64,000 nt of DNA from Methanothrix thermoacetophila PT (GCF_000014945.1 NC_008553.1:620001-684000), one strand, 5' to 3'. Counted from the stretch's first letter, positions 42,154 to 62,798 are shown. Made by a program: numbers and translations. Notes: generated by a model from the sequence alone, not told the origin.

Positions 42154-43489
<1,336 letters not shown>

Positions 43490-43525
43490 GAGGCGGATGG
43501 TATCGAGGAATCGCTCGATCAGGAT

Positions 43526-44101
43526 GTGCTCATAACAGTCTCAGATGTGATCGAATACCTCTTCTGCCCCAGGTTCATATTCTTCATGCACTGTCTCAAC
43601 ATCCCACAGAGGGAGGAGAGGTACTACAAGGTTCTGAGGGGCAGGGAACTTCACGAGAGCCGGGAGAAGGTCAACACCAGCTACGTGAGAAAGAGGCTCA
43701 GGTGCGTGAGAAAGGAGGTCGCTGTTTATATGACATCCCGCAGGTACCGGATAAAGGGGGAGGTGGATGAGGTTCTCTTTCTGGATGACGGGACAGCTGC
43801 CCCGATGGATTACAAGTATGCGGAGTACAACGATGTGGTTCACAGAACACACAAATACCAGCTCGCTCTTTACGGGCTGCTAATAATGGAACATTTTGGA
43901 GCCCCTGTGAATCGGGGATTCATATGCTATACTCGCAGCGACCACCATGTGGAGGAGGTGATTTTCCGGCGAAAGGATTATCATGCTGCTCTTGAGATAG
44001 TAAATGAGATACTTAGAACAGTTCAGTACGGTTACTATCCGGAAGGGACGAAACAGAAGGCCAGGTGCGTGGACTGCACGTACAGAAACATATGTGATTG
44101 A
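43526..44101 (+). CDS. cas4: CRISPR adaptation nuclease Cas4
   Basis: A 191-residue RecB-like nuclease with an iron-sulfur cluster. The first cysteine is in YLFCPRFIFF. Nuclease motifs are KGEVDEVLFLDDG and APMDYKYAEYND (D and DxK type), with a C-terminal cluster CVDCTYRNIC. Cas4 trims prespacers and picks the PAM end. A GTG at 43526 is the earliest reasonable start; cas2 ends 36 bases upstream and no ATG lies in that frame between them. cas8b follows after 3 bases. Confidence 0.93.
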   Translation: MLITVSDVIEYLFCPRFIFFMHCLNIPQREERYYKVLRGRELHESREKVNTSYVRKRLRCVRKEVAVYMTSRRYRIKGEVDEVLFLDDGTAAPMDYKYAEYNDVVHRTHKYQLALYGLLIMEHFGAPVNRGFICYTRSDHHVEEVIFRRKDYHAALEIVNEILRTVQYGYYPEGTKQKARCVDCTYRNICD

Positions 44102-44104
44102 TGC

Positions 44105-45961
44105 ATGGTGATCCGTGTGATCGAGGCAGTAGCAAGAATTGGTAAGCAAAGAATTGGTGAGCATGCTCAGAGCGGTTGTGAGGATATCCTGTATTACATT
44201 GTGGAGAATCCAAATCTCAATGGCGGTTACAACCATGCTCTTGTTGTCACACTCGAGGAGAAGGACGGAGATTTCTCCTACAGAGGGGTGGAGCTGGAGG
44301 AGCTCAAGGATTACAGAAGATACCTGTACAAGGGGAAGAAGGGGAATGCCACCGATGCCACCCCGACATGCAAGATCGCAAAGGATATCGAGAAAACATT
44401 CGAGAAAAAATTTCTGAGATGGTTTGATGGCATTGATTCTTCAGATCTAAGCGGGGAAGAAAGAGCCACGCTGAAAAATATAAAGAATGTGTTATTCTCA
44501 AACAAAGATAAAATCTTTAAGGAGCTACAGGAGAAGCGATCTCATCTCAAACAGAGAGAGAACTGCATAATAACCCTTGGATTTGTGAAGGATGGTGATC
44601 TTAAATACCTGGCGGATTATCCGGCGTTCAGAAACGTTCTCCTCAAAAATAGCTGCGATCGGTTCTTCCGTAAATACGGCGGCGAGTCCAGAGGAACGGA
44701 TGCGCTCTGCTCTGTCTGCAAGGAGCAAAAGGATGAGGTTTACGCATACGCCATCCCCTGGCCGTTCCACACATTCGACAAGCCCGGATTCATAGCAGGC
44801 GGGTTCAGGCAGTCTGATGCATGGAAGAACACGCCCGTCTGCTTAAACTGTGCGATAAATCTCGATGCGGGAAAGAAGTACATTGAGGAGAGCCTTGACT
44901 TCAGCTTCTACGGCTTCAGGTACCTTCTCATACCCAAGCTCATAATCGGCGATGACTACCAGGAGATCCTGGATATTCTGAGTGGTATGAAGAAAGAACT
45001 GAAGATGAGCCGGAAGACCAGGAACCGCATAACCGACGACGAGGATGAGATCCTGGATATGGTGAAGGATCAGAAGGACTTCTTCAGCAACAGCCTGATG
45101 TTTTATAAAAAGGATAACTCCGCTTACAGGATACTCCTTCACATCGATGGCATTCTCCCATCCAGGTTGAGAAGGCTGTTCGAGGCCAAGGAGAGGGTTG
45201 AAGGTGCCTTCGGGATATACAATGAGATGGTGCTATCCGAAGACAAAGGCAGGCTTATATTTGATTTTGGCGTTCTGAGGCGGTTCTTCCCCAGGGAGTC
45301 AGGAAACGTTACACACGACAAGATGTTTCTGGAAATTGTCAACAGGATATTCGTGGGGAGGTATGTGGATCGCCATCTTCTGATCTCATTCATGATGAAG
45401 AGAATCAGAGATGATTTCGTGCATGGGCGATCCACGCTGATGAACACGCTCAACGGATTCATGCTTCTTCATTATCTGAAGGAGCTGAATCTTCTGAAGG
45501 ATCTTGAGGTAGACAGAATGTCAGGAATTGTTCTCAAAAGAGAGGAGCTCGAGGCACTTCCTCTGGATAAGAGGGTTGAGAGGTTCTTCGAGGCGAACAG
45601 GGAGTTCTTTGACAGCGATGCGAAGAAGGCAACGTTTCTGGAAGGCGTGCTTGTGCAGAAGCTGCTGAACATCCAGTGGATGGAGAAGAATGCAAAGCCG
45701 TTCTACACAAAGCTGCATGGGCTCAAGATGAACGAGGCCCTGATCAAGAGGCTTCTTCCGGAGATACAGAACAAGCTTGAGGAGTATGAGAAGAACTACT
45801 ACAGGGAGCTCGAGGCGATCATAGCGGAGCATTTCGTTCTTTCGGGCCGCGGGTGGAAGGAGACAGATGATGAGCTGAGCTTCTACTTCGTGCTCGGTAT
45901 GAACCTGCACGAGCTCTTCAGGGTGGATAAAGAGAAGGAAAAGACGGAGGAAACAGCATGA
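44105..45961 (+). CDS. cas8b: Type I-B Cascade large subunit Cas8b (Csh1/TM1802 family)
   Basis: A 618-residue large subunit of the I-B Cascade complex, which reads the PAM and holds the R-loop. The zinc-finger cysteines are visible in ALCSVCKEQKDE (near residues 198-202) and TPVCLNCAINL (near 245). The flanking GFIAGGFRQSDAWKNTPVC is typical of the TM1802/Csh1 group. Downstream of the zinc finger it is helical and charged, with an acidic ending (VDKEKEKTEETA). Its stop overlaps cas7 by 4 bases. A small-subunit gene is not separate, as usual for I-B where an internal start can supply it. Confidence 0.92.
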   Translation: MVIRVIEAVARIGKQRIGEHAQSGCEDILYYIVENPNLNGGYNHALVVTLEEKDGDFSYRGVELEELKDYRRYLYKGKKGNATDATPTCKIAKDIEKTFEKKFLRWFDGIDSSDLSGEERATLKNIKNVLFSNKDKIFKELQEKRSHLKQRENCIITLGFVKDGDLKYLADYPAFRNVLLKNSCDRFFRKYGGESRGTDALCSVCKEQKDEVYAYAIPWPFHTFDKPGFIAGGFRQSDAWKNTPVCLNCAINLDAGKKYIEESLDFSFYGFRYLLIPKLIIGDDYQEILDILSGMKKELKMSRKTRNRITDDEDEILDMVKDQKDFFSNSLMFYKKDNSAYRILLHIDGILPSRLRRLFEAKERVEGAFGIYNEMVLSEDKGRLIFDFGVLRRFFPRESGNVTHDKMFLEIVNRIFVGRYVDRHLLISFMMKRIRDDFVHGRSTLMNTLNGFMLLHYLKELNLLKDLEVDRMSGIVLKREELEALPLDKRVERFFEANREFFDSDAKKATFLEGVLVQKLLNIQWMEKNAKPFYTKLHGLKMNEALIKRLLPEIQNKLEEYEKNYYRELEAIIAEHFVLSGRGWKETDDELSFYFVLGMNLHELFRVDKEKEKTEETA

Positions 45962-46923
45962 GCACAGTCTCGAACAGATCTGAGCTGCTGTTCATCTACG
46001 ATATAAGAGATGGGAATCCGAATGGAGATCCGATGGACGAGAACAAACCGCGCATGGATGAGGAGACAGGGGTGAACCTGGTAACCGATGTGCGTCTCAA
46101 GAGGACGATAAGAGATTACCTCCACAATTTCAAAGGGCTCGAGATATTCGTGAGGGAGATAATCTATGATGAGGAGAACGGGTACATCCAGGACGCCAAG
46201 AGGAGGGCCAAGGATTTCGGGGAAGATCAGGAGAGGATTCTGAGTGAGTGCATCGACGTGAGGCTGTTCGGCGGTGTGATTCCGCTAGAGAAACGGAGAC
46301 AGAACAAGCAAAAAGATGAGGGTGAGGGATCATCCAAAGGGGATTCGATTACCTATACAGGACCTGTTCAGTTCAAGATGGGGCGCTCGCTCCACAGGGT
46401 GGCCCTGAAGCACATAAAGGGCACAGGAGCATTCGCCTCGAAGGAGGGCATGACGCAGGCGACGTTCCGCGAGGAGTATGTTCTCCCCTACTCACTGATA
46501 CTCTTCTACGGCATAATAAACGAGAATGCTGCGAAGCACACTGCTCTCACAGAGGAGGATGTGAGGCTGCTCCTCGAGGGCATGTGGAACGGGACGAAGA
46601 GCTTGATATCGAGAACGAAGGCAGGACAGGTGCCCAGGCTGCTGCTCAAGGTCAACTACAGCAAGGCGAACTACCACATCGGGGATCTGGACAGGATGAT
46701 AAAGCTGGTATCGGATGTGCAGCACGAGGCGATCAGAGGGCCCGAGGATTTCTGTCTCGATGTCTCAGCGCTTGTGAGCAGGCTCAAAGCTGAGAAGGAC
46801 TCGATCAGGGATCTTGAGCTCTGCTTCGACAGGCAGCTCAGGTTCGTCAGGGACGGCGCCGAGTTCTCCATGGAGAAGCTGAACGAAGCAACTGGCATAG
46901 CGGTAAATCCGATTGCGTTCTAG
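45958..46923 (+). CDS. cas7: Type I-B Cascade backbone Cas7 (Csh2)
   Basis: A 321-residue RAMP protein forming the crRNA-coating filament. It begins NRSELLFIYDIRDGNPNGDP and continues TGVNLVTDVRLKRTIRDYL, the Csh2/Cst2 signature. It overlaps cas8b by 4 bases and precedes cas5 by 9 bases. About six copies assemble per Cascade. Length and order fit subtype I-B. Confidence 0.95.
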   Translation: MSTVSNRSELLFIYDIRDGNPNGDPMDENKPRMDEETGVNLVTDVRLKRTIRDYLHNFKGLEIFVREIIYDEENGYIQDAKRRAKDFGEDQERILSECIDVRLFGGVIPLEKRRQNKQKDEGEGSSKGDSITYTGPVQFKMGRSLHRVALKHIKGTGAFASKEGMTQATFREEYVLPYSLILFYGIINENAAKHTALTEEDVRLLLEGMWNGTKSLISRTKAGQVPRLLLKVNYSKANYHIGDLDRMIKLVSDVQHEAIRGPEDFCLDVSALVSRLKAEKDSIRDLELCFDRQLRFVRDGAEFSMEKLNEATGIAVNPIAF

Positions 46924-46932
46924 AGGTTCTCG

Positions 46933-47634
46933 ATGCGGGATAGCGTACTGGTCTTCGATGTGTGGGGGGATTACGCGCACTTCAGGAAGATCTACACAAC
47001 CAGCTCTCCCCTCACGTACTCTTTTCCTCCAAGGACAGCGATATCGGGAATCATCGGGGCCATAGCAGGGCTCAGCAAGGAGAGTTACTTCAGGTACTTT
47101 TCCAGGGATAAAGCAAGCATCGGTTGCAGGATCCTGGAGCCTGTGAAGAAGGTGCGCGTTGGCGAGAACCTGATCGACACAAAGAGGAGCATGCACAGGA
47201 TCCATAACAGGACGCAGGTCAGGTTTGAGTTTCTGAAGGATCCCAGGTTCAGGATATATCTCAGCCATTCTGACGATCGCTTCTCACGGGATCTCAGGGA
47301 TATGCTGGAGGATCACAGATGTGTGTACACACCATGCCTGGGCCTGAGCCAGCTAGTATGCAACTTCAAATTCGTCGGCGAGCTGGGTTTGAGGAGATGC
47401 GGTGATGGATTACAGGAAATAAACAGCGTTGTGCCTCTGAAATCTCTTCTGGAGTCGCCGGAGTTTGAGGAGGGCAGGGAGTATTTCTCAGAGATCATGC
47501 CCTGCGTTATTGGAGAGGGACGGGAGGTCACGGATTACAGTGAGGTGCTCTACGAGAGGAACGGAGGGAGCATCAGGGCCAGAACAAGAGATGCGTGGGA
47601 GCTGGATAATGGGGAGAGGGTCGTTTTCATTTAA
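46933..47634 (+). CDS. cas5: Type I-B Cascade subunit Cas5
   Basis: A 233-residue RAMP protein that caps the crRNA 5' tag. It begins DSVLVFDVWGDYAHFRKIYT and contains SPLTYSFPPRTAISGIIGAIAGL, typical of Cas5h/Cas5t. The last 26 bases overlap the start of cas3. Cas5 binds the 8-base handle, here ATTGAAAC from the repeat. Confidence 0.94.
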   Translation: MRDSVLVFDVWGDYAHFRKIYTTSSPLTYSFPPRTAISGIIGAIAGLSKESYFRYFSRDKASIGCRILEPVKKVRVGENLIDTKRSMHRIHNRTQVRFEFLKDPRFRIYLSHSDDRFSRDLRDMLEDHRCVYTPCLGLSQLVCNFKFVGELGLRRCGDGLQEINSVVPLKSLLESPEFEEGREYFSEIMPCVIGEGREVTDYSEVLYERNGGSIRARTRDAWELDNGERVVFI

Positions 47635-50023
47635 ACTCAGATCCCATCCCGATAAGCTTCTGGTGGATCACCTCAGAAACGTCGGGGAGATGTGCAGGAG
47701 GACAGTGGCTGAGAGCGCACGGAACCTCGATGATGCGGAGATTCTGAAGAATGTCGCATACATCATCGGAGCGACACACGATCTCGGAAAGGCGACGGGC
47801 TTCTTCCAGGAGTACCTGAGGGAGACTGATGAGAAAAGGAGGCGGGCTCTGAGATCGAGAGATGTCACGAAGCATGGTCTTCTCTCATCGCTCTTCACGT
47901 ACGCAATTGTCAGGGAGCATCTGAGGAAGAGAGGATGCGAGATGCCCGGCGCACTTCCCCTGGTCTCATTCATCGCGGTGAGGCGCCATCACGGGGATCT
48001 GACGAACGCGCTGGATGAGATCTCGGCGATCTACGCTGAGAGGGAGAGGGTCCTATCTGTGATCGAGGAGCAGGTCTCCAGTCTTGACAGAAACGAATGC
48101 GCGCAGATATTCAACGCCCTTCTCGGCGGTGTGGTTGAGATAGATCTTGATTCTCTTTTGGACCACATCCTCAGAGATGCTCTGAAGGATTTGAGGGGTG
48201 AGAAGCCGCTTGTCAGGAATCTCGGCAGGAGAAATGATGTTCTGCCATACTTCGTGGCCCAGCTCCTGTACTCCGCGCTTCTGGATGCGGACAAGACAGA
48301 TGCAGGGCTGGAGGGCGTGGATCTGGGCAGGGTGAATATTCCTCCAGATCTTGTGGACAGGTACAGGGAGGCGCGCGGGTTCTCCGAGAGGAGAGATGGC
48401 ATCAATGGAATGAGGAACGAGATATACCATGATGCAGTCAGCCGGATCTCAGGATGGGACCTCAATGAGAGGATAATATCGCTGAACGTGCCCACAGGTA
48501 CAGGCAAGACGCTGACATCCCTGGCGATGGCGCTGCGGCTCAGGAGAAGGCTGATGAACGAACGTGGGGTCATGCCCAGGATAGTATACGCTCTGCCGTT
48601 TCTCAGCATAATCGATCAGACATGCGATGTCTTCGAGGATGTGCTGGAAAGCGCGGGCATCAGGGCTGACTCAAGCGTGCTTCTGAAGCACCATCATCTC
48701 TCCGACATCACATACACAAAAGGGGATGAGGAATTCGAGTCTGACGTGAGCCTTCTGCTGATGGAGGGATGGAACTCTGAGATCGTGGTTACGACGTTCT
48801 GGCAGCTCTTCCACACGATATTCTCAAACAGAAACAGAAGGCTTCGCAAGTTCAACAGGATTGCAAATTCAATAATAATAATGGATGAAGTTCAGGCTGT
48901 GCCCCACAGGTACTGGCATCTTCTGCATGATTCTCTGAAAATGCTCTGCGAGAAGTTCAACAGCTATCTGATACTCGTCACCGCGACCCAGCCGCTGATC
49001 TTCTCTGAGGAGAGCGGCGAGATCAGGGAGGCTGTGAGCGATAAGGAGCGGTACTTCAGAGCGCTCAACAGGGTTGAGCTGCGCCCCATGATCGATGCTC
49101 CCATGAGCCTGGAGGAATTTGAGGCTCTTCTGGAGGGGGAGATTCACAATAACCCGGAGAAGGATTTTCTCATCGTGCTCAACACCATCCGCTCAGCCAG
49201 GAATGTGTACAGCGCCATAAAAGCTCTTGATCTGAGGGATACAGAGCTGTTTTACCTCTCCACGCATGTCGTTCCCAGGGATAGAAGGGATCGCATACGC
49301 AGGATCAGAGATGAGCGTGGAGGGCGCAGGAAGATCACAGTGAGCACGCAGCTCATAGAGGCGGGTGTTGATATCGATGCTGATATCGTGTTCAGGGATC
49401 TCGCGCCCCTCGACTCGATAAATCAGGTCGCGGGAAGGTGCAACAGGAACCTCTCGAAGGGCAGGGGGCGGGTCTCAGTTGTCATCCTCAGGGATGAGCG
49501 GAGGGAGCTGTGCAGGTACATCTACGATGGTTTTCTTATCTCAAAAACACTTGACATATTGAGGTCGTGCGGAGAATGCATAGAGGAAAGGGAGATACTG
49601 GAGCTGAACAGCAGGTACTTCAGGGTGGTGAGGAGCGGCATGAGCGATGAGACCTCCAGGAGGTGCATGAGCATGCTATCAGGCCTGGAGTTTGGAGATC
49701 TCGGGGAGAGCTTCAGGCTGATAGAGGAGGATGAGCCCAGGGTGGATGTTTTTGTGGAGACGGATGAGAGGGCCTCTGATGTCTGGCAGGCTTACAGAGA
49801 TCTCAGATCCGAGAGGGATCTCTGGGAGAGGAGAAGGAGATACCTGAGACTTAGAAACGCACTGAGCGATTACATGATCTCCCTTCCGAGGAGACTCGCT
49901 GCGGATCTTGTCGTGGAGAATCAGGGCACTGGCTACATATCGATGGACGAACTCCCTCACTACTACGATCCAGAGACCGGCTTCAGGGTGGAGGATGCTG
50001 GCGAGGGATCTATGATAATCTGA
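47609..50023 (+). CDS. cas3: Cas3 helicase-nuclease
   Basis: The signature type I effector that degrades target DNA. The 804-residue protein has an N-terminal HD nuclease (HLRNVGEMCRRTV, GATHDLGKATGFFQEYL, then FIAVRRHHGDL) to about residue 230. The superfamily 2 helicase that follows has NVPTGTGKTLTSLAMAL (Walker A), IIIMDEVQAVPHRYW (DEVQ box), TATQPLIF (motif III) and STQLIEAGVDID with DSINQVAGRCNRN (motifs V and VI). HD and helicase are fused in one chain. The start is ATG 47609 inside the end of cas5; an open frame upstream to 47465 overlaps cas5 and is rejected. Confidence 0.96.
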   Translation: MGRGSFSFKLRSHPDKLLVDHLRNVGEMCRRTVAESARNLDDAEILKNVAYIIGATHDLGKATGFFQEYLRETDEKRRRALRSRDVTKHGLLSSLFTYAIVREHLRKRGCEMPGALPLVSFIAVRRHHGDLTNALDEISAIYAERERVLSVIEEQVSSLDRNECAQIFNALLGGVVEIDLDSLLDHILRDALKDLRGEKPLVRNLGRRNDVLPYFVAQLLYSALLDADKTDAGLEGVDLGRVNIPPDLVDRYREARGFSERRDGINGMRNEIYHDAVSRISGWDLNERIISLNVPTGTGKTLTSLAMALRLRRRLMNERGVMPRIVYALPFLSIIDQTCDVFEDVLESAGIRADSSVLLKHHHLSDITYTKGDEEFESDVSLLLMEGWNSEIVVTTFWQLFHTIFSNRNRRLRKFNRIANSIIIMDEVQAVPHRYWHLLHDSLKMLCEKFNSYLILVTATQPLIFSEESGEIREAVSDKERYFRALNRVELRPMIDAPMSLEEFEALLEGEIHNNPEKDFLIVLNTIRSARNVYSAIKALDLRDTELFYLSTHVVPRDRRDRIRRIRDERGGRRKITVSTQLIEAGVDIDADIVFRDLAPLDSINQVAGRCNRNLSKGRGRVSVVILRDERRELCRYIYDGFLISKTLDILRSCGECIEEREILELNSRYFRVVRSGMSDETSRRCMSMLSGLEFGDLGESFRLIEEDEPRVDVFVETDERASDVWQAYRDLRSERDLWERRRRYLRLRNALSDYMISLPRRLAADLVVENQGTGYISMDELPHYYDPETGFRVEDAGEGSMII

Positions 50024-50029
50024 GGTGCT

Positions 50030-50872
50030 ATGGATCTAAGGATTCTGCGGCTGAGACTGCGCTCTGATTCGCATGTTAAGGAGGATGCTGCGAAGCTGCG
50101 CGGCTTCTTTGCCACGAGCTTCAATGATCAGATGCTTCTGCATCATCATTTCACTGACAGACTGATCTACAGGTATCCGCTCATACAGTACAAGATAATC
50201 CAGGGTGTTCCGGTCATCCTGGGGATAAACGAGGGCGCGGATGTTCTCAGGGATGTATACGATAAGTTCGGCGAGATCCGGCTTGGGGATCGGAGCTATT
50301 CTGTTGTTGAGCGGCATATATGCCTGCGGAGGGAGAGGTTTGGGTGTGCTGGAGAGCTTCATGCGTACAGGTTTGTCACTCCCTGGCTTGCCCTCAACCA
50401 GGAGAACTACATGCGCTATGCGGATGCAGCTTCCTGGTATGAGAGGAAAGAGATTCTGAGGAAGATCCTGGTTGGGAACATACTCTCTGCTGCGAAAGGT
50501 CTTGGATACACGGTGGATGAGCAGATACGTCTTGAGCTTGGCAGGGTGAGGGATGAGATCTGCATCTTGAAGGGTGTAATGGTCACCGGCATAAAATGCG
50601 AGTTCCTGACGAACTTTCACATTCCGGATCTGATGGGTCTGGGGAAGTCTGTCTCAAGGGGCTTTGGGGCTGTGGGGGCTCTGGAGGGCAGGCGAAGAAA
50701 GCTTGATGATTGCGGAGATGGAGTTACAGAGAGGAATGAATTTATAAAGGGTTCGATAAATTCCACTCATGCCAGAGACCCCCTCGAAAAGGAGATCTCC
50801 AAGGGGAGATCTGCCAAAAAGAACGAAAAATCGCCGCTGTCGAAGAGCGAGTTCCAGGAAAACAAGGATTGA
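50030..50872 (+). CDS. cas6: CRISPR RNA endonuclease Cas6, with frame running into the array
   Basis: Cas6 cuts the pre-crRNA inside each repeat. The fold begins MDLRILRLRLRSDSHV, has LIYRYPLIQYKIIQGVPVILG, and ends with the glycine-rich loop MGLGKSVSRGFGAV near residue 225, where a normal Cas6 stops. The frame continues about 50 residues of lysine- and serine-rich sequence through the leader and takes its TGA stop from the first repeat (50870-50872). The extra tail is either a real disordered extension or an unselected read-through. The crRNA promoter lies inside it. Cas6 probably also supplies crRNA to the Cmr complex, which has no processing enzyme of its own here. Confidence 0.92.
   Translation: MDLRILRLRLRSDSHVKEDAAKLRGFFATSFNDQMLLHHHFTDRLIYRYPLIQYKIIQGVPVILGINEGADVLRDVYDKFGEIRLGDRSYSVVERHICLRRERFGCAGELHAYRFVTPWLALNQENYMRYADAASWYERKEILRKILVGNILSAAKGLGYTVDEQIRLELGRVRDEICILKGVMVTGIKCEFLTNFHIPDLMGLGKSVSRGFGAVGALEGRRRKLDDCGDGVTERNEFIKGSINSTHARDPLEKEISKGRSAKKNEKSPLSKSEFQENKD
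50690..50838 (+). promoter_or_regulatory. CRISPR leader and pre-crRNA promoter
   Basis: The leader lies between the end of the conserved Cas6 fold and repeat 1. TTTATAAA at 50741-50748 is a strong TATA box predicting transcription from about 50772, giving a 65-70-base leader RNA. Near 50790 the palindrome GGAGATCTCC is followed by GGGAGATCT, which could be an adaptation anchor site. Direction follows from the ATTGAAAC repeat end. Confidence 0.7.
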
Positions 50873-53800
50873 AACTTTCCGGATTAGAATAATAAGGAAC
50901 TTCCGGTACGGGGTCGAAGAGCGAGTTCCAGGAAAACAAGGATTGAAACGGTATACTAAGCGTACCGTTCGTCTCAACATCGACTAGTCGAAGAGCGAGT
51001 TCCAGGAAAACAAGGATTGAAACACACCATATGCTCCGGGCAGAGGAGCATGTTCACACTGTCGAAGAGCGAGTTCCAGGAAAACAAGGATTGAAACCCA
51101 GTCCTCCTCCTCAGGAGGACTGGCTTTTTCAAAGTCGAAGAGCGAGTTCCAGGAAAACAAGGATTGAAACCACAATAAATCCCCCTTTGAAAACGAGTTC
51201 AAGCGTCGAAGAGCGAGTTCCAGGAAAACAAGGATTGAAACTATGTAGCTGCATATCTACACCTCCACGGATATAAGAGGTCGAAGAGCGAGTTCCAGGA
51301 AAACAAGGATTGAAACTCTTCTGGCTCTGGCACGGCGAGAACTATCTCGCCGTGTCGAAGAGCGAGTTCCAGGAAAACAAGGATTGAAACTCCAAATTAC
51401 CAAGACAAACATGCTTGTCATGGGTGGTCGAAGAGCGAGTTCCAGGAAAACAAGGATTGAAACCTGCGAACTTTGCCATGAGCACCTCTTCGTGAGGTGC
51501 TGTCGAAGAGCGAGTTCCAGGAAAACAAGGATTGAAACGATGATTAATCTCATAACTGGTGAGATTTTCGACTCTCGTCGAAGAGCGAGTTCCAGGAAAA
51601 CAAGGATTGAAACCCTGTTGATGGTGCTCAGTGACGTTTCGATAGAAGAGTCGAAGAGCGAGTTCCAGGAAAACAAGGATTGAAACAACTGATTTCCTTG
51701 TCGGCAAATTTGTTGTTGTAGAGTCGAAGAGCGAGTTCCAGGAAAACAAGGATTGAAACCCTCCTAGCCCTTTATTCGCTGGCTGGAGCTTCTGCTGTCG
51801 AAGAGCGAGTTCCAGGAAAACAAGGATTGAAACTACAATTCCTTCCCGCACTCTGAGCACCTCACGAAGTCGAAGAGCGAGTTCCAGGAAAACAAGGATT
51901 GAAACAGATGAACTGATACCAGTTCACCTCGGTCGTTTCGAGTCGAAGAGCGAGTTCCAGGAAAACAAGGATTGAAACGGAAATCCCAGACCCCGCTGAG
52001 TGTATCTTTCAGTTGTCGAAGAGCGAGTTCCAGGAAAACAAGGATTGAAACTCCATTCTCGAGCGGAAACGCGCTCGGGCCGAGGAGTCGAAGAGCGAGT
52101 TCCAGGAAAACAAGGATTGAAACACTGCCTGCTGCTCAAAGCCGGCGAAGGTGAACCTGGTCGAAGAGCGAGTTCCAGGAAAACAAGGATTGAAACAGGT
52201 ATCAGGAGACCTGCGGAGCAAGTACACTCCAGGGTCGAAGAGCGAGTTCCAGGAAAACAAGGATTGAAACCCGACGATTTTGACTCAAACCAAGCGGTGT
52301 ATGTCGAGGTCGAAGAGCGAGTTCCAGGAAAACAAGGATTGAAACTCGTTTTTTGTCGCGCGCACAATCTCACGATACCAACATCATCAAGTCGAAGAGC
52401 GAGTTCCAGGAAAACAAGGATTGAAACCCAGCAGCGATCTTACCTCTGAGCAATACTCGCCGCGTCGAAGAGCGAGTTCCAGGAAAACAAGGATTGAAAC
52501 ATGAACTCATCCGAGCGATTCCTGTAGATCTGGCCGGTCGAAGAGCGAGTTCCAGGAAAACAAGGATTGAAACACTACTCCTTTGTCTGGAAGATCCAGC
52601 ATTTACTTGTCGAAGAGCGAGTTCCAGGAAAACAAGGATTGAAACTGGCGTCATCAGAATAACCAAGAGCTTTCATTAGAGTCGAAGAGCGAGTTCCAGG
52701 AAAACAAGGATTGAAACATTAAATCCTTATCCAGCCTGGTTAAGCCTTACGATGTCGAAGAGCGAGTTCCAGGAAAACAAGGATTGAAACATCTACTAGC
52801 GTCGCTTGCGGCGCAAGTAGATATAGTGTCGAAGAGCGAGTTCCAGGAAAACAAGGATTGAAACAAGAATTGTAACTCGTATTAATGGGGCAAATCAAGT
52901 CGAAGAGCGAGTTCCAGGAAAACAAGGATTGAAACTCTCGGTTAACGGCGAGATAGTCCTCGCCGTCCCAAGTCGAAGAGCGAGTTCCAGGAAAACAAGG
53001 ATTGAAACTCCTACGCCATACGGCTAGCGTGAAAAAAAATGCCGTAGTCGAAGAGCGAGTTCCAGGAAAACAAGGATTGAAACCGCCTCCCAGTTCTCGT
53101 CGTTCCATACTGTCTCAGGTCGAAGAGCGAGTTCCAGGAAAACAAGGATTGAAACAAGTTCCAGGTACTTCTCCTGTCCCGGTGGAATGATGTCGAAGAG
53201 CGAGTTCCAGGAAAACAAGGATTGAAACAAAGATGTCATGATCGCATCGGTGATCGGCTCGGTGTCGAAGAGCGAGTTCCAGGAAAACAAGGATTGAAAC
53301 ACAGCTTAGCGGTCTTGTTCTGGCCCGACAGCGCCTCCTCCTGGTCGAAGAGCGAGTTCCAGGAAAACAAGGATTGAAACCCTCATCGGGTACTGGTGAG
53401 CAGCCCTCGCATCCTGTCGAAGAGCGAGTTCCAGGAAAACAAGGATTGAAACGATTTGCCCCTGGGCATATCGGATCACTATCTGATGTCGAAGAGCGAG
53501 TTCCAGGAAAACAAGGATTGAAACTCACGAACATGTACCGACTGCGGCGCTTCACCCGCGTCGAAGAGCGAGTTCCAGGAAAACAAGGATTGAAACCGTC
53601 ATTCACGTTCTCCTACCCGATAATTCCCGGGAGTCGAAGAGCGAGTTCCAGGAAAACAAGGATTGAAACATCTCGCTCAATGTCAGAGACGCTCTAGTAT
53701 CTGGAGTCGAAGAGCGAGTTCCAGGAAAACAAGGATTGAAACTCGAGGAGGTGAGAGGACGGCTAAACTGCGACGTGGTCGAAGAGCGAGTTCCAGGAAA

Positions 53801-56800
53801 ACAAGGATTGAAACCCGACTTGATTCAGATGAGAGTCGGATCTTCTGGGAGTCGAAGAGCGAGTTCCAGGAAAACAAGGATTGAAACTTTGGTTCTGGTG
53901 CTGTCATTTTTTTCTCCTCCACGGGTCGAAGAGCGAGTTCCAGGAAAACAAGGATTGAAACTATTTAGATTTATTTGAAGGCCAGCGGCTCCAGCCAGGT
54001 CGAAGAGCGAGTTCCAGGAAAACAAGGATTGAAACATGTCTCCGACAACTTGCAACGGATAATCATTACCAAGTCGAAGAGCGAGTTCCAGGAAAACAAG
54101 GATTGAAACTGACCTGGACTAAATTTGACATGTCGAAGGAGGAGGAGTCGAAGAGCGAGTTCCAGGAAAACAAGGATTGAAACATCACGGCTAGGTAGCC
54201 TAAATACTCCTTTTGGTGTCGAAGAGCGAGTTCCAGGAAAACAAGGATTGAAACCCTCCAAATACCATATACGCATTATTGGTATATAAAGGTCGAAGAG
54301 CGAGTTCCAGGAAAACAAGGATTGAAACACCTAATGCAGCGGCTCGACAAAGAAGTGCTCAGGGTCGAAGAGCGAGTTCCAGGAAAACAAGGATTGAAAC
54401 GAGCGCAAAGCACGAGATGCCTTCTTCAGGCGGGAGGTCGAAGAGCGAGTTCCAGGAAAACAAGGATTGAAACTTATGTTCCGGTCCACGTACCGGTATG
54501 GTCGTGAAAGGTCGAAGAGCGAGTTCCAGGAAAACAAGGATTGAAACACAATCTTCTATTTCGCTGCGCACGCCAGCAACGAGTCGAAGAGCGAGTTCCA
54601 GGAAAACAAGGATTGAAACACGCGCAGAGGATAACGGAGCTCATGACCGTTCCGAGTCGAAGAGCGAGTTCCAGGAAAACAAGGATTGAAACCGAATTCT
54701 CTGAGCATAAGTGATATCAAAAAAATATAGTCGAAGAGCGAGTTCCAGGAAAACAAGGATTGAAACTATTTAGATTTATTTGAAGGCCAGCGGCTCCAGC
54801 CAGGTCGAAGAGCGAGTTCCAGGAAAACAAGGATTGAAACATGTCTCCGACAACTTGCAACGGATAATCATTACCAAGTCGAAGAGCGAGTTCCAGGAAA
54901 ACAAGGATTGAAACTGACCTGGACTAAATTTGACATGTCGAAGGAGGAGGAGTCGAAGAGCGAGTTCCAGGAAAACAAGGATTGAAACCGCCCACAGCGA
55001 TAGGTTTTCGAATAATGAAAAAGCGGTCGAAGAGCGAGTTCCAGGAAAACAAGGATTGAAACACAGAATCTTCGACCATGATCAGGAACTCATTCATTGT
55101 CGAAGAGCGAGTTCCAGGAAAACAAGGATTGAAACGCAATTTTCCAGCATGCATCACAACAGAATCACGAAGTCGAAGAGCGAGTTCCAGGAAAACAAGG
55201 ATTGAAACTATGGAGACTTCTGGAAGAAACCCTCTCAACACTCTCGTCGAAGAGCGAGTTCCAGGAAAACAAGGATTGAAACTCGTCAGGGCATTCGCCA
55301 GGCATATGCTGTGTGTCGTCGAAGAGCGAGTTCCAGGAAAACAAGGATTGAAACTCCGCCTGGCTCCACCTGCGACGGCGACCATTCAGTGTCGAAGAGC
55401 GAGTTCCAGGAAAACAAGGATTGAAACCTTTCTGCTACGATGGGGGGTGTCACGATCCACGTGTCGAAGAGCGAGTTCCAGGAAAACAAGGATTGAAACT
55501 CTCCAGCAGACTTTGCGACAAGCTCTCCAGTCTGCGTCGAAGAGCGAGTTCCAGGAAAACAAGGATTGAAACTGACACCTTCATTATATAATACAGAGCA
55601 TAATATGGGTCGAAGAGCGAGTTCCAGGAAAACAAGGATTGAAACTGTTGAATACTGTAAGAAGAACAATCTCGCATATAGTCGAAGAGCGAGTTCCAGG
55701 AAAACAAGGATTGAAACCGGGATACGTTCAAGCGATCAGCGGATGGAATGAAGCGTCGAAGAGCGAGTTCCAGGAAAACAAGGATTGAAACTATACAATG
55801 AAAGTCTATATGGTAAATAGAGGCCCGGTCGAAGAGCGAGTTCCAGGAAAACAAGGATTGAAACCGCATAAAATGCGCATGTTCTAAAAATAATCCCAAG
55901 CGTCGAAGAGCGAGTTCCAGGAAAACAAGGATTGAAACATCTCTGATGCAGGAGGAACGGTCGCAACATCCGGGTCGAAGAGCGAGTTCCAGGAAAACAA
56001 GGATTGAAACCGAACAACTTTAAGATCTGTACGGAACTCGGTCTCAGGTCGAAGAGCGAGTTCCAGGAAAACAAGGATTGAAACACTTGACTTTTGTATC
56101 CAACCAACACATCTTTCGATGTCGAAGAGCGAGTTCCAGGAAAACAAGGATTGAAACACGATTGATACGAACGTATTCTGAAAGGATGAAGATGTCGAAG
56201 AGCGAGTTCCAGGAAAACAAGGATTGAAACTCCTTGCAAATCTCCACAGATCGAAGATCGAGGATTGAGTCGAAGAGCGAGTTCCAGGAAAACAAGGATT
56301 GAAACTCCTTATTAGGATGTGTTCAACGCCGTCGGCATTGTCGAAGAGCGAGTTCCAGGAAAACAAGGATTGAAACCGAACGCTCTGGTCTTTGAGCGCT
56401 CGTAACTATTTTGTCGAAGAGCGAGTTCCAGGAAAACAAGGATTGAAACAAATTCCAGCCCAGGATGGGCTGAAGGCGCTCATCCGTCGAAGAGCGAGTT
56501 CCAGGAAAACAAGGATTGAAACCCCGAATGAATTCACCGTATATGGTACATCGGGAATTGTCGAAGAGCGAGTTCCAGGAAAACAAGGATTGAAACTCGC
56601 ATTTAATGTGTATCGTACACACTTGAAGCCGGAGTCGAAGAGCGAGTTCCAGGAAAACAAGGATTGAAACCTCCTGGGGATACGCCCCATAATATACGTA
56701 TACGTCATGTCGAAGAGCGAGTTCCAGGAAAACAAGGATTGAAACCATCGAGTGGATAAAAAAGACACTCGATGACGAGGGGTCGAAGAGCGAGTTCCAG

Positions 56801-57982
56801 GAAAACAAGGATTGAAACTATATTTCCCTCTCGGGAGACTCGGGAGAATTACAGTCGAAGAGCGAGTTCCAGGAAAACAAGGATTGAAACTGCATCCAGC
56901 GCTTCTGCATCATCAAAGCAATTCGAGTCGAAGAGCGAGTTCCAGGAAAACAAGGATTGAAACACGCTGCCTTCGATATCATGTCGGCGACATGCTTGTG
57001 TCGAAGAGCGAGTTCCAGGAAAACAAGGATTGAAACTACACAGCCCTGAGCCAGCGGGTCTCGGGGGCTGGTCGAAGAGCGAGTTCCAGGAAAACAAGGA
57101 TTGAAACTCGAAAACGTTGTCAGCGTGCCCAGTGAACCTCCAACGTCGAAGAGCGAGTTCCAGGAAAACAAGGATTGAAACACAATTTAGGAAAAAAAAA
57201 AAGTCGAAGAGCGAGTTCCAGGAAAACAAGGATTGAAACCGGACACAATCGGGTGGACAAATCTGCTCATTCAGTTCTGGTCGAAGAGCGAGTTCCAGGA
57301 AAACAAGGATTGAAACTATGAATCGGATGCGCGACGCGATAGCATCGCTATCTGGTCGAAGAGCGAGTTCCAGGAAAACAAGGATTGAAACATCATACAG
57401 ACGTGTTGCGTGTTGATTACAGAAACAAGGTCGAAGAGCGAGTTCCAGGAAAACAAGGATTGAAACCGCCATTCGAAATTCGTGGCGCGGGGGAGCCCTG
57501 GAGTCGAAGAGCGAGTTCCAGGAAAACAAGGATTGAAACTGTCACACAAAACGCGAAATCAATACCGGTATCTACAAGTCGAAGAGCGAGTTCCAGGAAA
57601 ACAAGGATTGAAACCTGCGTATCTCCACGCACTGCACGGGTTGTCGAAATGTCGAAGAGCGAGTTCCAGGAAAACAAGGATTGAAACCCTCGACAACCTG
57701 ACCGTTCTTCACTACTGCCTGAAGTCGAAGAGCGAGTTCCAGGAAAACAAGGATTGAAACGCCCATATCTCTTCGTGATGCTCCGCGGTCCTGCTGGTCG
57801 AAGAGCGAGTTCCAGGAAAACAAGGATTGAAACAGCAGCATCTTTTTTCACCTCATGATATCATTATGACGTCGAAGAGCGAGTTCCAGGAAAACAAGGA
57901 TTGAAACTTTCTATACTGGGGATGTTGTACTTCCTTGCCTTCCTTGTCGAAGAGCGAGTTCCAGGAAAACAAGGATTGAAAC
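50839..57982 (+). CRISPR. CRISPR array, 98 repeats of 37 bp, 97 spacers
   Basis: I counted 98 repeats that begin GTCGAAGAGCGAGTTC and end AAGGATTGAAAC, all identical as far as I can see, including the last. Spacers are mostly 34-38 bases (average unit 73.3). Outliers are spacer 21 (45), spacer 34 (43), spacer 88 (40) and spacer 87 (21 bases, mostly A). Spacers 43-45 recur as 54-56. The 3' end ATTGAAAC is the canonical 8-base crRNA tag, so transcription runs left to right from the leader beside cas6. The repeat fits the I-B type, and the Cmr module at the other end probably uses the same crRNAs. Confidence 0.98.
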
Positions 57983-57992
57983 GAACGCGCGG

Positions 57993-58265
57993 CTAAGGCG
58001 GCGTCACATCGACCACCTGCCCGGGCCTGTACGCAGGTGTGTGCGACGCGACGACGACCGCGCCGAGTCGGGGGTCAAAAACCGCGATCGCCCCCGCGGG
58101 AGAGCCGTGGAGGCGATGAAGGGCGAGACCGTATCTCCAGATCGGCGCCCGCCCCTCCACGACGACAAGCGCACCCCGCGGGATGGGCGGCAGCGGCGGC
58201 AGCGGTTCATCCGGCGCGATCGGCGACTCGACCCCGATGTGGTAGAAGACAACGCTCTCCATCAA
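57993..58265 (-). CDS. csx3: CRISPR-associated Csx3 (Crn3-type ring nuclease)
   Basis: A 90-residue protein with the Csx3 core RGALVVVEGRAPIWRYGLALHRLH followed by AIAVFDPRLGAVVVASHTP and PGQVVDV. It matches the AF1864 type of Csx3 as I recall it. Csx3 is a manganese-dependent RNase and a ring nuclease that degrades cyclic tetra-adenylate by dimer sandwiching. The gene is far more GC-rich than its neighbours, suggesting separate acquisition. It is the last gene of the cmr operon, overlaps the Can2/Card1-like gene by 4 bases and stops 10 bases from the last repeat. It should switch off Cas10 signalling. Confidence 0.88.
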   Translation of the reverse strand: MMESVVFYHIGVESPIAPDEPLPPLPPIPRGALVVVEGRAPIWRYGLALHRLHGSPAGAIAVFDPRLGAVVVASHTPAYRPGQVVDVTPP

Positions 58266-59476
58266 ACCGCCTGCCGTATGTTGAAGACCTGCGCAACCCT
58301 CGCGTTCAGCCGCACGTCACCTGCGAGGTACATCTGCGCAAGACTGCGAACATCTTCAGGCTTCACAATGTTGCACTCATAGAGCCTCGATCTGTCCTCC
58401 AGATGCTCCTTGATATTACCGGTCTCGGAATCGATCACGTTATCAGAGGTCGTGACAAGATAGGATCGAACACGAAGTGCTCCGAGCTGCTTCCGTATCG
58501 CCTCAATCTTGTACAGCGTATCACTCCCCTCCCTGTCGTGCTCCTGCCCGCCGCTCTTGCACTCCACGATCCTGAGGGACTGATCTGTCATGAACACAAC
58601 ATCCAGATCGTTCTGGAGCTTCTCGTTCTTCATTCCAATCTGCAAACCGAGATGCACATCCCAGACACGATCAAGCCCCCTCAGCAACCCCCATGTGAAG
58701 ACCTCAAGCCAGCCGCCTGTGAGGAACCTGACAGCGTATTTATCCAGGGCGCCTGTGAAGTGCCCACCATCACATGCCAGACCAAAGCTCGAAGCGATCA
58801 TCTCACGCAGATGACCATCGTTCAGAAATAGACCATCTGATTCTGAGATCTTGAGTCCCCTGTACCTGCCCCTCCGCTCTTTCGATATCCTCGATAAATT
58901 CGCGAGAAGCCCGAGAATGGCGCCATTCTGGCTCCTCGCCGCGATCTCTGCTGCAAGACCAAGCCACCTCCTGCTCCGCTCCTCGTTCTCCTGGACCTTG
59001 TCGTAATGGAGCACATCAAACCCATAGCCTGCGAGGAACTCAGCCACAGATATCCTGTGGCTCAGAGGTATGTCCGCTCCACCCGAGAAGTCCAGCGCCC
59101 TCGACTGGTCAGACGCGGAGACATAGATTATCCTGGCATTCTTCTTTTGCCTGAAAAACCCGTATGCTCCTATGCTCATCGGCTTCGTGCCGCCTGTGAT
59201 GTTCACGATCCACTCCGCATCTCTGTATCTCTCATAGACCCCTTTCAGCGCCCTCTCAGTCTCCTCTATTGAGTCACCATCCTCCAGCGGCACGATCTCA
59301 TTTCTTGTTAGGTAATCCTGACCTCCGATCGCAAGGGCTTTCAGGAATCTGTTTGCAGCCTCCCTCCTTTTCATCCCCTCGGTCTCAAGCAGCACGAGGA
59401 GATCCGGCCGCAGCTCGTGAACGCCCAGCAGGTTCGGAACATGCTGCTCGCTGATAAGACAGAGCATCGCTTTCAT
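58262..59476 (-). CDS. CARF-nuclease effector (Can2/Card1-like, DUF1887 type)
   Basis: A 404-residue type III accessory. The N-terminal CARF half (to about 160) has LLVLLETEGMKRREA and the ligand-loop motif VNITGGTKPMSIGAYGFF. The C-terminal PD-(D/E)xK nuclease contains LQNDLDVVFMTDQSLRIVECKSGG, with the Asp, Glu and Lys of the active site in place. Card1/Can2 proteins cut single- or double-stranded DNA (and RNA) when bound to cyclic tetra-adenylate. It is 4 bases after cmr6 and overlaps csx3 by 4 bases, so effector and ring nuclease are co-expressed with the complex that makes their signal. Csx1/Csm6 is excluded because no HEPN motif is visible. Confidence 0.88.
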   Translation of the reverse strand: MKAMLCLISEQHVPNLLGVHELRPDLLVLLETEGMKRREAANRFLKALAIGGQDYLTRNEIVPLEDGDSIEETERALKGVYERYRDAEWIVNITGGTKPMSIGAYGFFRQKKNARIIYVSASDQSRALDFSGGADIPLSHRISVAEFLAGYGFDVLHYDKVQENEERSRRWLGLAAEIAARSQNGAILGLLANLSRISKERRGRYRGLKISESDGLFLNDGHLREMIASSFGLACDGGHFTGALDKYAVRFLTGGWLEVFTWGLLRGLDRVWDVHLGLQIGMKNEKLQNDLDVVFMTDQSLRIVECKSGGQEHDREGSDTLYKIEAIRKQLGALRVRSYLVTTSDNVIDSETGNIKEHLEDRSRLYECNIVKPEDVRSLAQMYLAGDVRLNARVAQVFNIRQAV

Positions 59477-59480
59477 CCTT

Positions 59481-60512
59481 TCATCTCCAGGCCTTGTAAC
59501 GATCCAGAGTCTTTCGCATGCTCTTTGAGGGCGCGTCTTCCCAGAGATTCATGCATTGGTATATCTGCATGATCTCCTGCCGGACCATCCCTTTGAGCTC
59601 ATCATTCTCGATCGCATTCCACCTGTCAGCGAGCACTTTTGGGCACTCTTTAGCGAAATCCTCCACGCTCTTTCCCATTTCTTCGGCGAGCTTCTCCAGC
59701 CACTCGCGCCCCGGTGTCATGGGCTCTGGCGCCGCTTCCTCTGGGGTCTCTGCTTCGATGCAGGCGAACCTGCCGTATCCGACTGCGGTCTTTGCGCCCG
59801 CGCCGATCTCCTGCAGCGCCTCTTTGAGCCATCCGATCACCTTCTCGCAGTCCTGAGTGGCTTCTTTTCTCGGAATCACCCCAAAGAGGAACTCCTGGCC
59901 CTCAGCGACAGCGAGGAACGGTATCGGCACAGGGCTGTGCCAGTCAGCAGGCCAGCCCTCTGGAGGTTTATCACCTCTGTAGTACGGCCCGTAGTGAGGC
60001 GTCATTATCTCCGCCTTCAGCTCCACAGGTCTGACCGGCAGGGCGTCCAGGAAGATAACGGATCCCACACTGCCTGCGCCATCCGGTCCGAAGATCCTGC
60101 GGATCTCCCCGTTGTCCAGATTCCTCCACAGCCGCGCCCAGCCCCTCACAATTCCCTTAACAGATGAGCCAGGAAGGTACGGGATGCCGAGCGTGTGGTG
60201 CCACGCGAAGCCGTTCTCCACAGGATGGCTCCTCCCGAGGCCTGTGACGAACGGCGCGGTGGTCCTGAAGAGCATGGCCTTTCCGCCCGAATTTGAGATC
60301 AGGGAGATCACACGCTCCTTGATCTCCCTGAGGAGAGCCTCATCTCCCACATTCCTCACAACAGTCCTGATCCACTCCTTCTTGCCGTTATCCCCCAGGC
60401 TGTTGAAATCATCGTTCCACATGTCGCAGAACTTGTCGTACCAGAGCCCTGCGTTTCCTTCTACACACTTGGGCTCAGAGATGGTTCTGTAAAGAGGCAG
60501 TGGCATGATCAC
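59481..60512 (-). CDS. cmr6: Type III-B Cmr6
   Basis: A 343-residue RAMP protein capping the Cmr backbone at the crRNA 3' side. The motif LFRTTAPFVTGLGRSHPVENGFAWHHTLGIPYLPGSSVKGIVRGWAR holds the RAMP glycine loop. The region EIGAGAKTAVGYGRF is the conserved late G-rich loop. About 80 C-terminal residues after it (from near 265) are helical and acidic, longer than many Cmr6. Start overlaps cmr5 by 4 bases. Confidence 0.94.
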   Translation of the reverse strand: MIMPLPLYRTISEPKCVEGNAGLWYDKFCDMWNDDFNSLGDNGKKEWIRTVVRNVGDEALLREIKERVISLISNSGGKAMLFRTTAPFVTGLGRSHPVENGFAWHHTLGIPYLPGSSVKGIVRGWARLWRNLDNGEIRRIFGPDGAGSVGSVIFLDALPVRPVELKAEIMTPHYGPYYRGDKPPEGWPADWHSPVPIPFLAVAEGQEFLFGVIPRKEATQDCEKVIGWLKEALQEIGAGAKTAVGYGRFACIEAETPEEAAPEPMTPGREWLEKLAEEMGKSVEDFAKECPKVLADRWNAIENDELKGMVRQEIMQIYQCMNLWEDAPSKSMRKTLDRYKAWR

Positions 60513-60910
60513 GCCTCCTTATCCTTCTCCAGGAAGGCCTGGCTGAACTTCTTCAGCCATTCAAGGTACGCCAGCGCCTCAGCCTGGGCGAGAACGTACT
60601 GCTTCTGATCGCCATCAACAATCGCCTTCATCAGATTCTCCTCAGCTGAGTAGATTCTCCTCGTGCGAATCCAGCCCGCGACCAGCTCGTAGAGCTTGTT
60701 ATGGGCTTTTTTGTCGTCACTCATCTCCCCCGCCCTGCCCGCAGCTGCAAGCTCGCCAGCCATCGCCTGGCCCAGGCCGTTCATCACTATGGCAGGAGGC
60801 AGGCGCTCCACATAGCTCCGGAATTTGCCCGCCCAGCTTTCACCCCTGATGGAGTTCACAGCCTCCAGCGCATGTTTCGCACGCTCCTGCTCCAGACTCC
60901 TCTCACTCAT
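60509..60910 (-). CDS. cmr5: Type III-B Cmr5 small subunit
   Basis: A 133-residue all-helical small subunit lining the target groove. Features are LEQERAKHALEAVNSIRGE, YVERLPPAIVMNGLGQAMA and the central NKLYELVAGWIRT, as in the Cmr5 family. Overlaps of 4 bases on both sides place it firmly in the cmr operon. Confidence 0.92.
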   Translation of the reverse strand: MSERSLEQERAKHALEAVNSIRGESWAGKFRSYVERLPPAIVMNGLGQAMAGELAAAGRAGEMSDDKKAHNKLYELVAGWIRTRRIYSAEENLMKAIVDGDQKQYVLAQAEALAYLEWLKKFSQAFLEKDKEA

Positions 60911-61728
60911 CTCCCCTCACCCTGCTCCAGGATCTTCACAGCAAACCACCCCATCCCCACGGTCTCGTTCCCGCCGAGCTGTAGGTAGGGCTTCGTCTCG
61001 AACATAGACTGCACTTTGCCCAGCGCACCATCCTTGCGCTCGAATACCATCGCATACATCAGGGTGTCTGGAGCTAGCGCCTCCTCGTACCAGAGGTTCT
61101 TGCTCTTCTTGTTGTCATCCAGCTTGTTTCTGGCGATCACAGGCAGGCCATAGCTGGCAAACCACCCGAAATCATCATCGCTGATGATCACAAGCTGCCT
61201 CTCGAGCCTGGATGCGGTCTGCTTGTGAGGCACCATCTTCTTCAGAGCATCAATCAGCGCACCATCTATCCCGTTAGATCTCTGGAACTCCCTCTCCTCC
61301 AGGAAGATCTGATTTAGATCGTCGGTGCAGCAGGCTTTACCCCTTTCAACGCTCGCTCCCTCAAATCCATCAGATATGCCGCAGAGCCTCATGTCCCTGC
61401 TCAGCCTCTCCAGGATGTGTGGACAGGTGACCCACCTGTAAGATCCGGTGAGGCTCCTCACCGGAAGGAGGAGAAGCCTGGCGTCGGATACCAGCACATC
61501 TCCCGCCCTGTCCTGGTCGCCGAAAATCGATTCGTCCATCCCTCTCTCTCTGGCAGCGTCCCTCAGCGCGCCTTTCAGACTGGATCCAGCTATTACCGGA
61601 TAGCTGGTCACAGCCTCTCTCGCCACAGGCAGATCCACAAAACCCTCAGACCTGCCTGCTCCTGAATGTATGTGGGTTTCGGCAAGCATGCCGAGCATCA
61701 TGCCTCTCATGATCTCCAACCTCACCAA
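60907..61728 (-). CDS. cmr4: Type III-B backbone nuclease Cmr4
   Basis: A 273-residue RAMP that forms the repeated backbone and cuts target RNA at 6-base intervals. It starts GMMLGMLAETHIHSGAGRSEGFVDLPVAREAVTSYPVIAGSSLKGALRD; the active-site Asp lies in that first loop (EGFVDLPV). The thumb and glycine loop follow, ending LQLGGNETVGMGWFAV. Overlaps cmr5 by 4 and cmr3 by 7 bases. Confidence 0.95.
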   Translation of the reverse strand: MVRLEIMRGMMLGMLAETHIHSGAGRSEGFVDLPVAREAVTSYPVIAGSSLKGALRDAARERGMDESIFGDQDRAGDVLVSDARLLLLPVRSLTGSYRWVTCPHILERLSRDMRLCGISDGFEGASVERGKACCTDDLNQIFLEEREFQRSNGIDGALIDALKKMVPHKQTASRLERQLVIISDDDFGWFASYGLPVIARNKLDDNKKSKNLWYEEALAPDTLMYAMVFERKDGALGKVQSMFETKPYLQLGGNETVGMGWFAVKILEQGEGR

Positions 61729-62798
61729 ATGCCTAGAGCAATCTCTCCAAAACCAAATCCTGTGTACTCTCCTATCCTGCTCACGCTCATAACATCGTTC
61801 AGCTCATCCGCCTCAGCCTCGCAGAACCAGACGGATCCCGGTGGAATGAACGGCTTGAGCTCCACAGGTCTCCTGTTAACAGAATCCCAGCCACCGATGC
61901 GAAGGGCTCGCCCCACGCAGGCTGATACGACCTCCCCAGGAACCCCGGGGATGCTCTCTCCCGGACGGGGCCACCTCCCCAGAAACGCCGGGGTGATATG
62001 CACCAGCGTGAATCTGACCCGTCCGTCGATCGGCCCGATCTCCTGCCTGATCTCAGAGACGCCTTTTCCGGGGCTGAGCATCTCGACACACCCCATCCGC
62101 CCCTCTCCGCCGATGGGCATCACCGCGCCGTCCAGCTTTTCCAGGAGGCCCTCATCGATCCCCTCAACGCCCATGATCAGATGCACTCCGCGCACAAGCC
62201 TGATCCTGTTTATCGAGTAAAGATGCGCTTCCTTAGCTGTTCTTGTATCCCTTTCTCTCTCAAGACCGACAGCGTACTCCGTCCCCCATAACTCCTCCCT
62301 CGGGATCACCCGTCCCTCCGGAACCTCTCCCCTCAATACCTGTTTCAGCTGATCTCCATTTACGTATCCTGACAGCTGCTTCATGCCATCGATTTTCTCC
62401 GCTGTGGGAAGCCTGACCCTTCCAAGATCGCACTCCACCTCCTCCCCGGGACGGAGTAGCCTCATCTCGTACCCGCTGTCGTTCCTCTTCCCGAGTAGGT
62501 TCAGCGGCGCTGGATACAGCATCTCTGGACCGCGATCTCCCTCCCTGCAGAGCAGCGGTCCCCTGAACCTGAGACCAGCCAGATCATACCCATCCCCGAG
62601 CACCCTGCAGATCTCTTCACTCCACTTCCCTTCACGCCAGCCCATGCTCCGGGCGAGGTGCGCCCTTATCGCTCCGACCACAGTGAACGCGCTTGGGGGA
62701 AAGAGCCCCCCAACGTCTGATGTCGCCTCTCCCAAATGGAACGGCCTTCCGTCCCTGAAGAACCAGGAATCCACCGGGGTGATTCTGAGATAAATCAT
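61722..62798 (-). CDS. cmr3: Type III-B Cmr3
   Basis: A 358-residue RAMP that binds the crRNA 5' tag and Cas10. Its start YLRITPVDSWFFRDGRPF is diagnostic, followed by LGEATSDVGGLFPPSAFTVVGAIRAHLARS. The end TGFGFGEIALG is the glycine-rich RAMP loop. Overlaps cas10 by 4 bases upstream and cmr4 by 7 downstream. Confidence 0.95.
   Translation of the reverse strand: MIYLRITPVDSWFFRDGRPFHLGEATSDVGGLFPPSAFTVVGAIRAHLARSMGWREGKWSEEICRVLGDGYDLAGLRFRGPLLCREGDRGPEMLYPAPLNLLGKRNDSGYEMRLLRPGEEVECDLGRVRLPTAEKIDGMKQLSGYVNGDQLKQVLRGEVPEGRVIPREELWGTEYAVGLERERDTRTAKEAHLYSINRIRLVRGVHLIMGVEGIDEGLLEKLDGAVMPIGGEGRMGCVEMLSPGKGVSEIRQEIGPIDGRVRFTLVHITPAFLGRWPRPGESIPGVPGEVVSACVGRALRIGGWDSVNRRPVELKPFIPPGSVWFCEAEADELNDVMSVSRIGEYTGFGFGEIALGIW

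Follow-up and report, generated by a model that had tools for sequence, protein, structure and literature searches.

Many spacers of a CRISPR array in Methanothrix thermoacetophila PT contain long perfect inverted repeats. Does this pattern exceed chance, and if so, does it reflect the acquisition machinery, the invading DNA or the way in which that DNA was broken? The array lies in a stretch of 64,000 nucleotides (NC_008553.1:620001-684000; hereafter the window) of a genome that is a single contig of 1,879,471 bases. The original prediction, made from the sequence alone, was that hairpin stems are over-represented, and that either acquisition favours hairpin-forming DNA (terminators, origins, cruciform ends) or the targeted elements are rich in hairpins; it was further suggested that such crRNAs would fold on themselves, which could impair targeting. 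Coordinates below refer to the + strand of the window unless otherwise indicated.

Results

A type I-B array with a conserved leader

The array (50839..57982) consists of 98 identical 37-nt repeats (GTCGAAGAGCGAGTTCCAGGAAAACAAGGATTGAAAC) and 97 spacers, 94 of which are distinct: spacers 43-45 recur as 54-56, the three-spacer block with its repeats being internally duplicated (53962-54146 and 54767-54951). The array is preceded by a complete type I-B operon, cas1-cas2-cas4-cas8b-cas7-cas5-cas3-cas6b (42154..50872). With Pfam and NCBIfam profiles, the curated cut-offs are reached by cas8b, csh2, cas5h, the core and HD domains of cas3 and the N- and C-domains of Cas6b, and the NCBIfam profiles TIGR00287, TIGR01573 and TIGR00372 are matched in the same locus. 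Gene content and order resemble those of the type I-B systems of methanogenic archaea (Cas8b/Csh1, Cas7/Csh2, Cas5b, Cas3, Cas6b, Cas4-Cas1-Cas2), as do the 37-nt repeat ending in ATTGAAAC, the 34- to 38-nt spacers and the conserved leader; the machinery does not differ from known type I-B, and what sets this array apart is the make-up of its newest spacers alone.

The leader side of the array (50679..50838) is conserved among genomes of the same genus, with about 1 difference in 238 nt from two of them and a clearly related sequence in a third. Since the leader is conserved and the arrays of these genomes have the same orientation, spacer 1 can be placed at the leader-proximal, newest end. 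The cas6b frame (50030-50872) crosses the leader and stops at the TGA of GGATTGAAAC inside the first repeat; the leader thus lies within this open frame, and leader and repeat may encode the C-terminus of Cas6.

Perfect short-loop stems exceed chance

When perfect stems of 7 bp or more, with loops of 3 nt or longer, were counted over the 94 distinct spacers, 11 proved to have one (spacers 3, 4, 7, 9, 10, 15, 27, 29, 64, 77 and 81). Comparison with shuffled spacers had been set beforehand as the check that could overturn the claim, and the shuffles fell far below 11: mononucleotide shuffles gave a mean of 0.92 and a maximum of 4, and dinucleotide shuffles a mean of 1.54 and a maximum of 5 (300 trials each). 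The expectation from 36-mers drawn at random from a 450-kb sample of the host genome was 1.56 (binomial P 5e-7). The predicted excess over chance is therefore borne out by both the dinucleotide shuffles and the host background. When only hairpins proper (loop 3-8 nt) were counted, 8 were observed against 0.81 expected. The overall folding energy of the spacers is ordinary, with 16 below -10 kcal/mol compared with 12.6 for host 36-mers, indicating that the excess is specific to perfect short-loop stems; folding energy, being in line with host DNA, was dropped as a measure of the anomaly.

The eight spacers named at the outset (3, 4, 7, 9, 15, 27, 29 and 81) carry their stems as described and in the right places, and spacers 10, 64 and 77 are additions to that set. 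Spacer 3 pairs ATGCTCC with GGAGCAT across a loop of 7 (51031..51051), spacer 9 pairs AGCACCTC with GAGGTGCT across a loop of 5 (51481..51501), spacer 10 AATCTCA with TGAGATT across 7 (51546..51566), spacer 15 TGAACTG with CAGTTCA across 4 (51909..51926) and spacer 77 CAGCCCA with TGGGCTG across 3 (56456..56472). Spacer 4 has an 11-bp stem, CCAGTCCTCCT/AGGAGGACTGG, with a loop of 4 and then CTTTTT (51098..51123), while spacer 27, in which ATCTACT/AGTAGAT encloses the inner pairing GCGTCG/CGGCGC, is a near-continuous 32-nt hairpin (52791..52822). The hairpin of spacer 7 (ACGGCGAGA/TCTCGCCGT; 51332-51353) is flush with the 3' end of the spacer, and that of spacer 29 is ACGGCGAG/CTCGCCGT (52945-52966). 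Inverted repeats with longer loops are found in spacer 64 (GCAGACT/AGTCTGC, loop 16; 55506..55535) and spacer 81 (CATCGAGTG/CACTCGATG, loop 11; 56746..56774). The offset of the hairpin within the spacer varies, with no fixed position, which fits a site-based effect and not a length-ruler effect.

The excess belongs to the newest spacers

Among the 32 leader-proximal spacers, 7 have a hairpin with a loop of 3-8 nt compared with 0.27 expected, whereas the older 62 have 1 compared with 0.6. This clustering toward the leader is significant in a permutation test in which the placing of the cut is taken into account (p 0.0008), and the excess is a trait of the recent batch, the newest third, and not of the whole array.

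Hairpins are mildly over-represented in spacers generally: of 790 control spacers, taken from further arrays of this class, 18 have a stem of 7 bp or more, against 9.9 by shuffling (1.8x). The control rate of 2.3% is nonetheless well below the 11.7% seen here (Fisher p 8e-5). A closer comparison is offered by a sibling genome of the same genus (G003), whose Cas1 is 100% identical, whose repeat is the same, whose leader differs by about 1 base and whose array is syntenic. Only 2 of its 98 spacers have such a stem (Fisher p 0.009), although this contrast is not overwhelming; between the newest 32 spacers of each array, p is 0.053.

The host has a second array, of type I-D, with 60 repeats (G000:C1:1696036-1700458, host contig coordinates), served by its own Cas1 and Cas4, distinct from those of the I-B locus. 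It is weakly enriched, with stems of at least 7 bp in 4 of 59 spacers against 0.92 expected (P 0.01-0.05); its spacers include an 11-bp hairpin, TGACGCATACT/AGTATGCGTCA. Over both host arrays, 8 of 15 stems are flush with a spacer end, compared with 22.5% expected. This surplus is suggestive, but spacer 9 shows that truncation of a longer natural stem accounts for at least part of it, and snap-back synthesis was therefore given no weight.

Two hairpin sites were each sampled twice

An all-against-all comparison of the spacers yielded only two convincing overlaps, 7/29 and 9/14, both on hairpins and both on opposite strands. Spacers 7 (51328..51353) and 29 (52945..52970) have 24 of 26 bases in common, and both mismatches fall at third codon positions of a frame reading GEIVLAVP, the pattern that homologous genes in related invaders would show; the palindrome keeps the opposite-strand frame open too. 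Spacers 9 and 14 form a 13-nt dovetail that ends exactly at both spacer ends, the 3' end of spacer 14 (51856..51868) being one arm and the loop of the spacer 9 hairpin. Joined, they span 60 nt and contain an open frame, CELCHEHLFVRCSECGKEL, that has a CxxC-x8-CxxC zinc-ribbon pattern, and the natural stem is 10 bp, clipped by the end of spacer 9. Judging from these frames, the hairpins of 7/29 and 9/14 probably lie inside genes. Where it can be judged, then, the idea that the hairpins mark terminators, origins or cruciform ends finds no support, both pairs reading as coding.

In both pairs, the newer spacer (7, 9) overlaps an older one (29, 14) on the opposite strand. This order and strand arrangement fits primed adaptation as known from the type I-B systems of Haloarcula hispanica and Haloferax volcanii, in which a new spacer likewise overlaps an older imperfect match on the opposite strand. 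Priming by itself, however, supplies no reason for the hairpins seen here.

Search for the source of the spacers

Exact pattern scans of IMG/VR with the hairpin segments of spacers 3, 4, 7/29, 9/14, 15 and 27 gave no protospacer. A hairpin look-alike in IMG/VR (L059) was rejected as a protospacer of spacer 7, as the match is confined to the stem, and an actinobacterial look-alike of the 7/29 hairpin, from a scan of genome contigs, encodes a similar GEIVLAVP stretch and is no protospacer. Matches were at chance level in BLAST searches of 93 of the 94 distinct spacers against phages (the 21-nt spacer 87 being left out) and of the hairpin spacers plus spacer 14 against plasmids, and also when selected spacers were compared with 100 related and 394 archaeal genomes in a search that scores few candidates per genome. 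As for self-targeting, spacers 1-33, 64, 77 and 81 matched nothing in the host beyond the array at E<=1, and a short-word BLAST of the full spacer set against a sample covering 24% of the host gave no full-length match.

We also determined how often hairpins occur in possible source DNA. In seven records of archaeal and bacterial viruses (psiM2, Drs3, HRPV-1, M13, HF2, SIRV1 and phiX174), 0.7-2.8% of 36-mers bear a short-loop stem of 7 bp or more, SIRV1 being the highest, and the densest 1-kb stretch found in the host reaches 10%. The newest 32 spacers stand at 22%, and even at a rate of 3% the probability of 7 or more among 32 is 4e-5. Uniform sampling of any virus genome like those seven is very unlikely to give 22%.

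Discussion

The anomaly in this ordinary type I-B array is statistically real; it is a lead, and does not amount to a new system. Its cause is probably to be sought in the captured DNA or its breakage and not in the enzyme itself. The reading we favor, at a little short of an even chance, is that a recent batch of acquisitions (roughly spacers 1-32) returned again and again to sites that can form hairpins in one or a few invaders. Its mechanistic extension, which we hold as rather doubtful, is that hairpins of the invader, once extruded, acted as acquisition hotspots by yielding ends for Cas4-Cas1-Cas2, so that a single episode left a batch of hairpin spacers from both strands with repeated sampling. 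On this scheme, the hairpins would be extruded during replication or Cas3 unwinding; nicking or stalling at the extruded hairpins would create local DNA ends, which could serve as prespacers for Cas4-Cas1-Cas2; and the older, imperfectly matching spacers 29 and 14 may have primed re-acquisition at the same spots, giving 7 and 9. Because a genome with the same Cas1 has no such excess, the trigger would be the replication mode of the invader or the processing of breaks by the host at that time, and not the structure of Cas1.

The excess itself, its restriction to the newest spacers, the contrast with the sibling and the two hairpin sites each sampled twice are all in favor of such hotspots. On the other hand, breakage predicts that many spacers end in or beside a hairpin, and spacer 14 alone clearly does; in addition, the numbers are low, and only a few infections may lie behind the hairpin spacers. 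In E. coli, SbcCD, which cuts hairpins formed by palindromes, influences primed adaptation and is needed for it redundantly with RecBCD (PMC6896009). Break-dependent acquisition of this RecBCD/SbcCD-linked kind would likewise sample breaking sites repeatedly, but in E. coli it acts regionally, near breaks or priming sites, whereas here the hairpin is inside the spacer itself; in the literature that we found on E. coli break-dependent acquisition, spacers themselves holding a hairpin are not reported. An SbcD/Mre11-type gene lies at 1598291 of the host contig; its score of 64 bits is below the curated cut-off of 78.

Both causes first put forward, hairpin-favoring acquisition and hairpin-rich targets, remain viable; an intrinsic preference of Cas1/Cas2/Cas4 is disfavored by the 2/98 of the sibling. 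The invaders behind the newest spacers may simply have been unusually rich in inverted repeats, with spacers drawn from them without hairpin bias. This would account for the strain- and time-specific pattern, and also for the mild type I-D excess (4/59, with its own Cas1), as the two arrays would be exposed to a common set of invaders. We consider it somewhat unlikely, since about 22% of the 36-nt windows of such an invader would need a short-loop stem, against 0.7-2.8% in the seven viruses and 10% in the densest kilobase of the host, and since it leaves unexplained why both overlapping pairs sit on hairpins. Chance, added to the mild general excess in spacers and boosted by the selection of whatever looked most striking, is improbable in our judgment. 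The array was indeed singled out by a reading that scanned for anything odd, and against the baseline of the controls (18/790, 1.8x shuffled) its P value becomes 1e-5, or 5e-5 when 7/29 is counted once. The type I-D array, however, was looked at only afterwards and is enriched too (P 0.01-0.05), and the clustering toward the leader (p 0.0008) was no part of the original claim.

Two further readings have very little probability. An intrinsic preference of Cas1-Cas2-Cas4 for self-folding prespacers, or the capture of single-stranded or RNA-derived DNA, would yield hairpin spacers directly; the sibling with identical Cas1 largely refutes the former, the position of the hairpin within the spacer is not fixed, and capture from RNA finds no reverse transcriptase among the cas genes scanned. 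Neither locus is an RT-Cas1 system, both encoding a plain Cas1 (ORFs of 360 and 351 aa). It is just as hard to credit that the hairpins are terminators, replication origins or transposon ends in the invading element, taken up for their DNA ends. Spacer 4, whose 11-bp stem followed by CTTTTT resembles an intrinsic terminator, is alone in this, and is open in several frames as well; the near-perfect 32-nt hairpin of spacer 27 would suit such an element, but the hairpins of both overlapping pairs read as coding sequence, and bacterial-type terminators are not the usual form in archaea.

Little is known of how prespacers arise in archaea without RecBCD. Should hairpins prove to be local hotspots, the choice of spacers would be tied to DNA secondary structure and to hairpin nucleases (Mre11-Rad50), and the resulting crRNAs would be prone to self-folding; the sibling with identical Cas1 and without the excess makes a clean comparison. 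If the invader sequence or chance is responsible instead, the array counsels caution in inferring bias from a single array.

Several other features of these loci are of note. Spacer 87 (57182-57202) is just 21 nt long (ACAATTTAGGAAAAAAAAAAA), its final eleven bases being A, possibly through slippage or a truncated integration. Downstream of the I-B array, type III-B cmr genes (cmr3, cmr4, cmr5, cmr6 and a cmr2/cas10 fragment near the window end) and a gene for a Card1-type CARF nuclease lie on the - strand (58262-63946), and the cmr genes have no array of their own within the window. At the type I-D locus (L060, 7294-15924), csc3 is split into two ORFs of 840 and 148 aa. The cas1 matches in three other genomes of the genus (L116, L117 and L118, in G001, G004 and G002, respectively), 88-89% identical to the Cas1 of the window, each contain one in-frame TGA, which is possibly an artefact of the end of the matched gene or a sign of a disrupted cas1.
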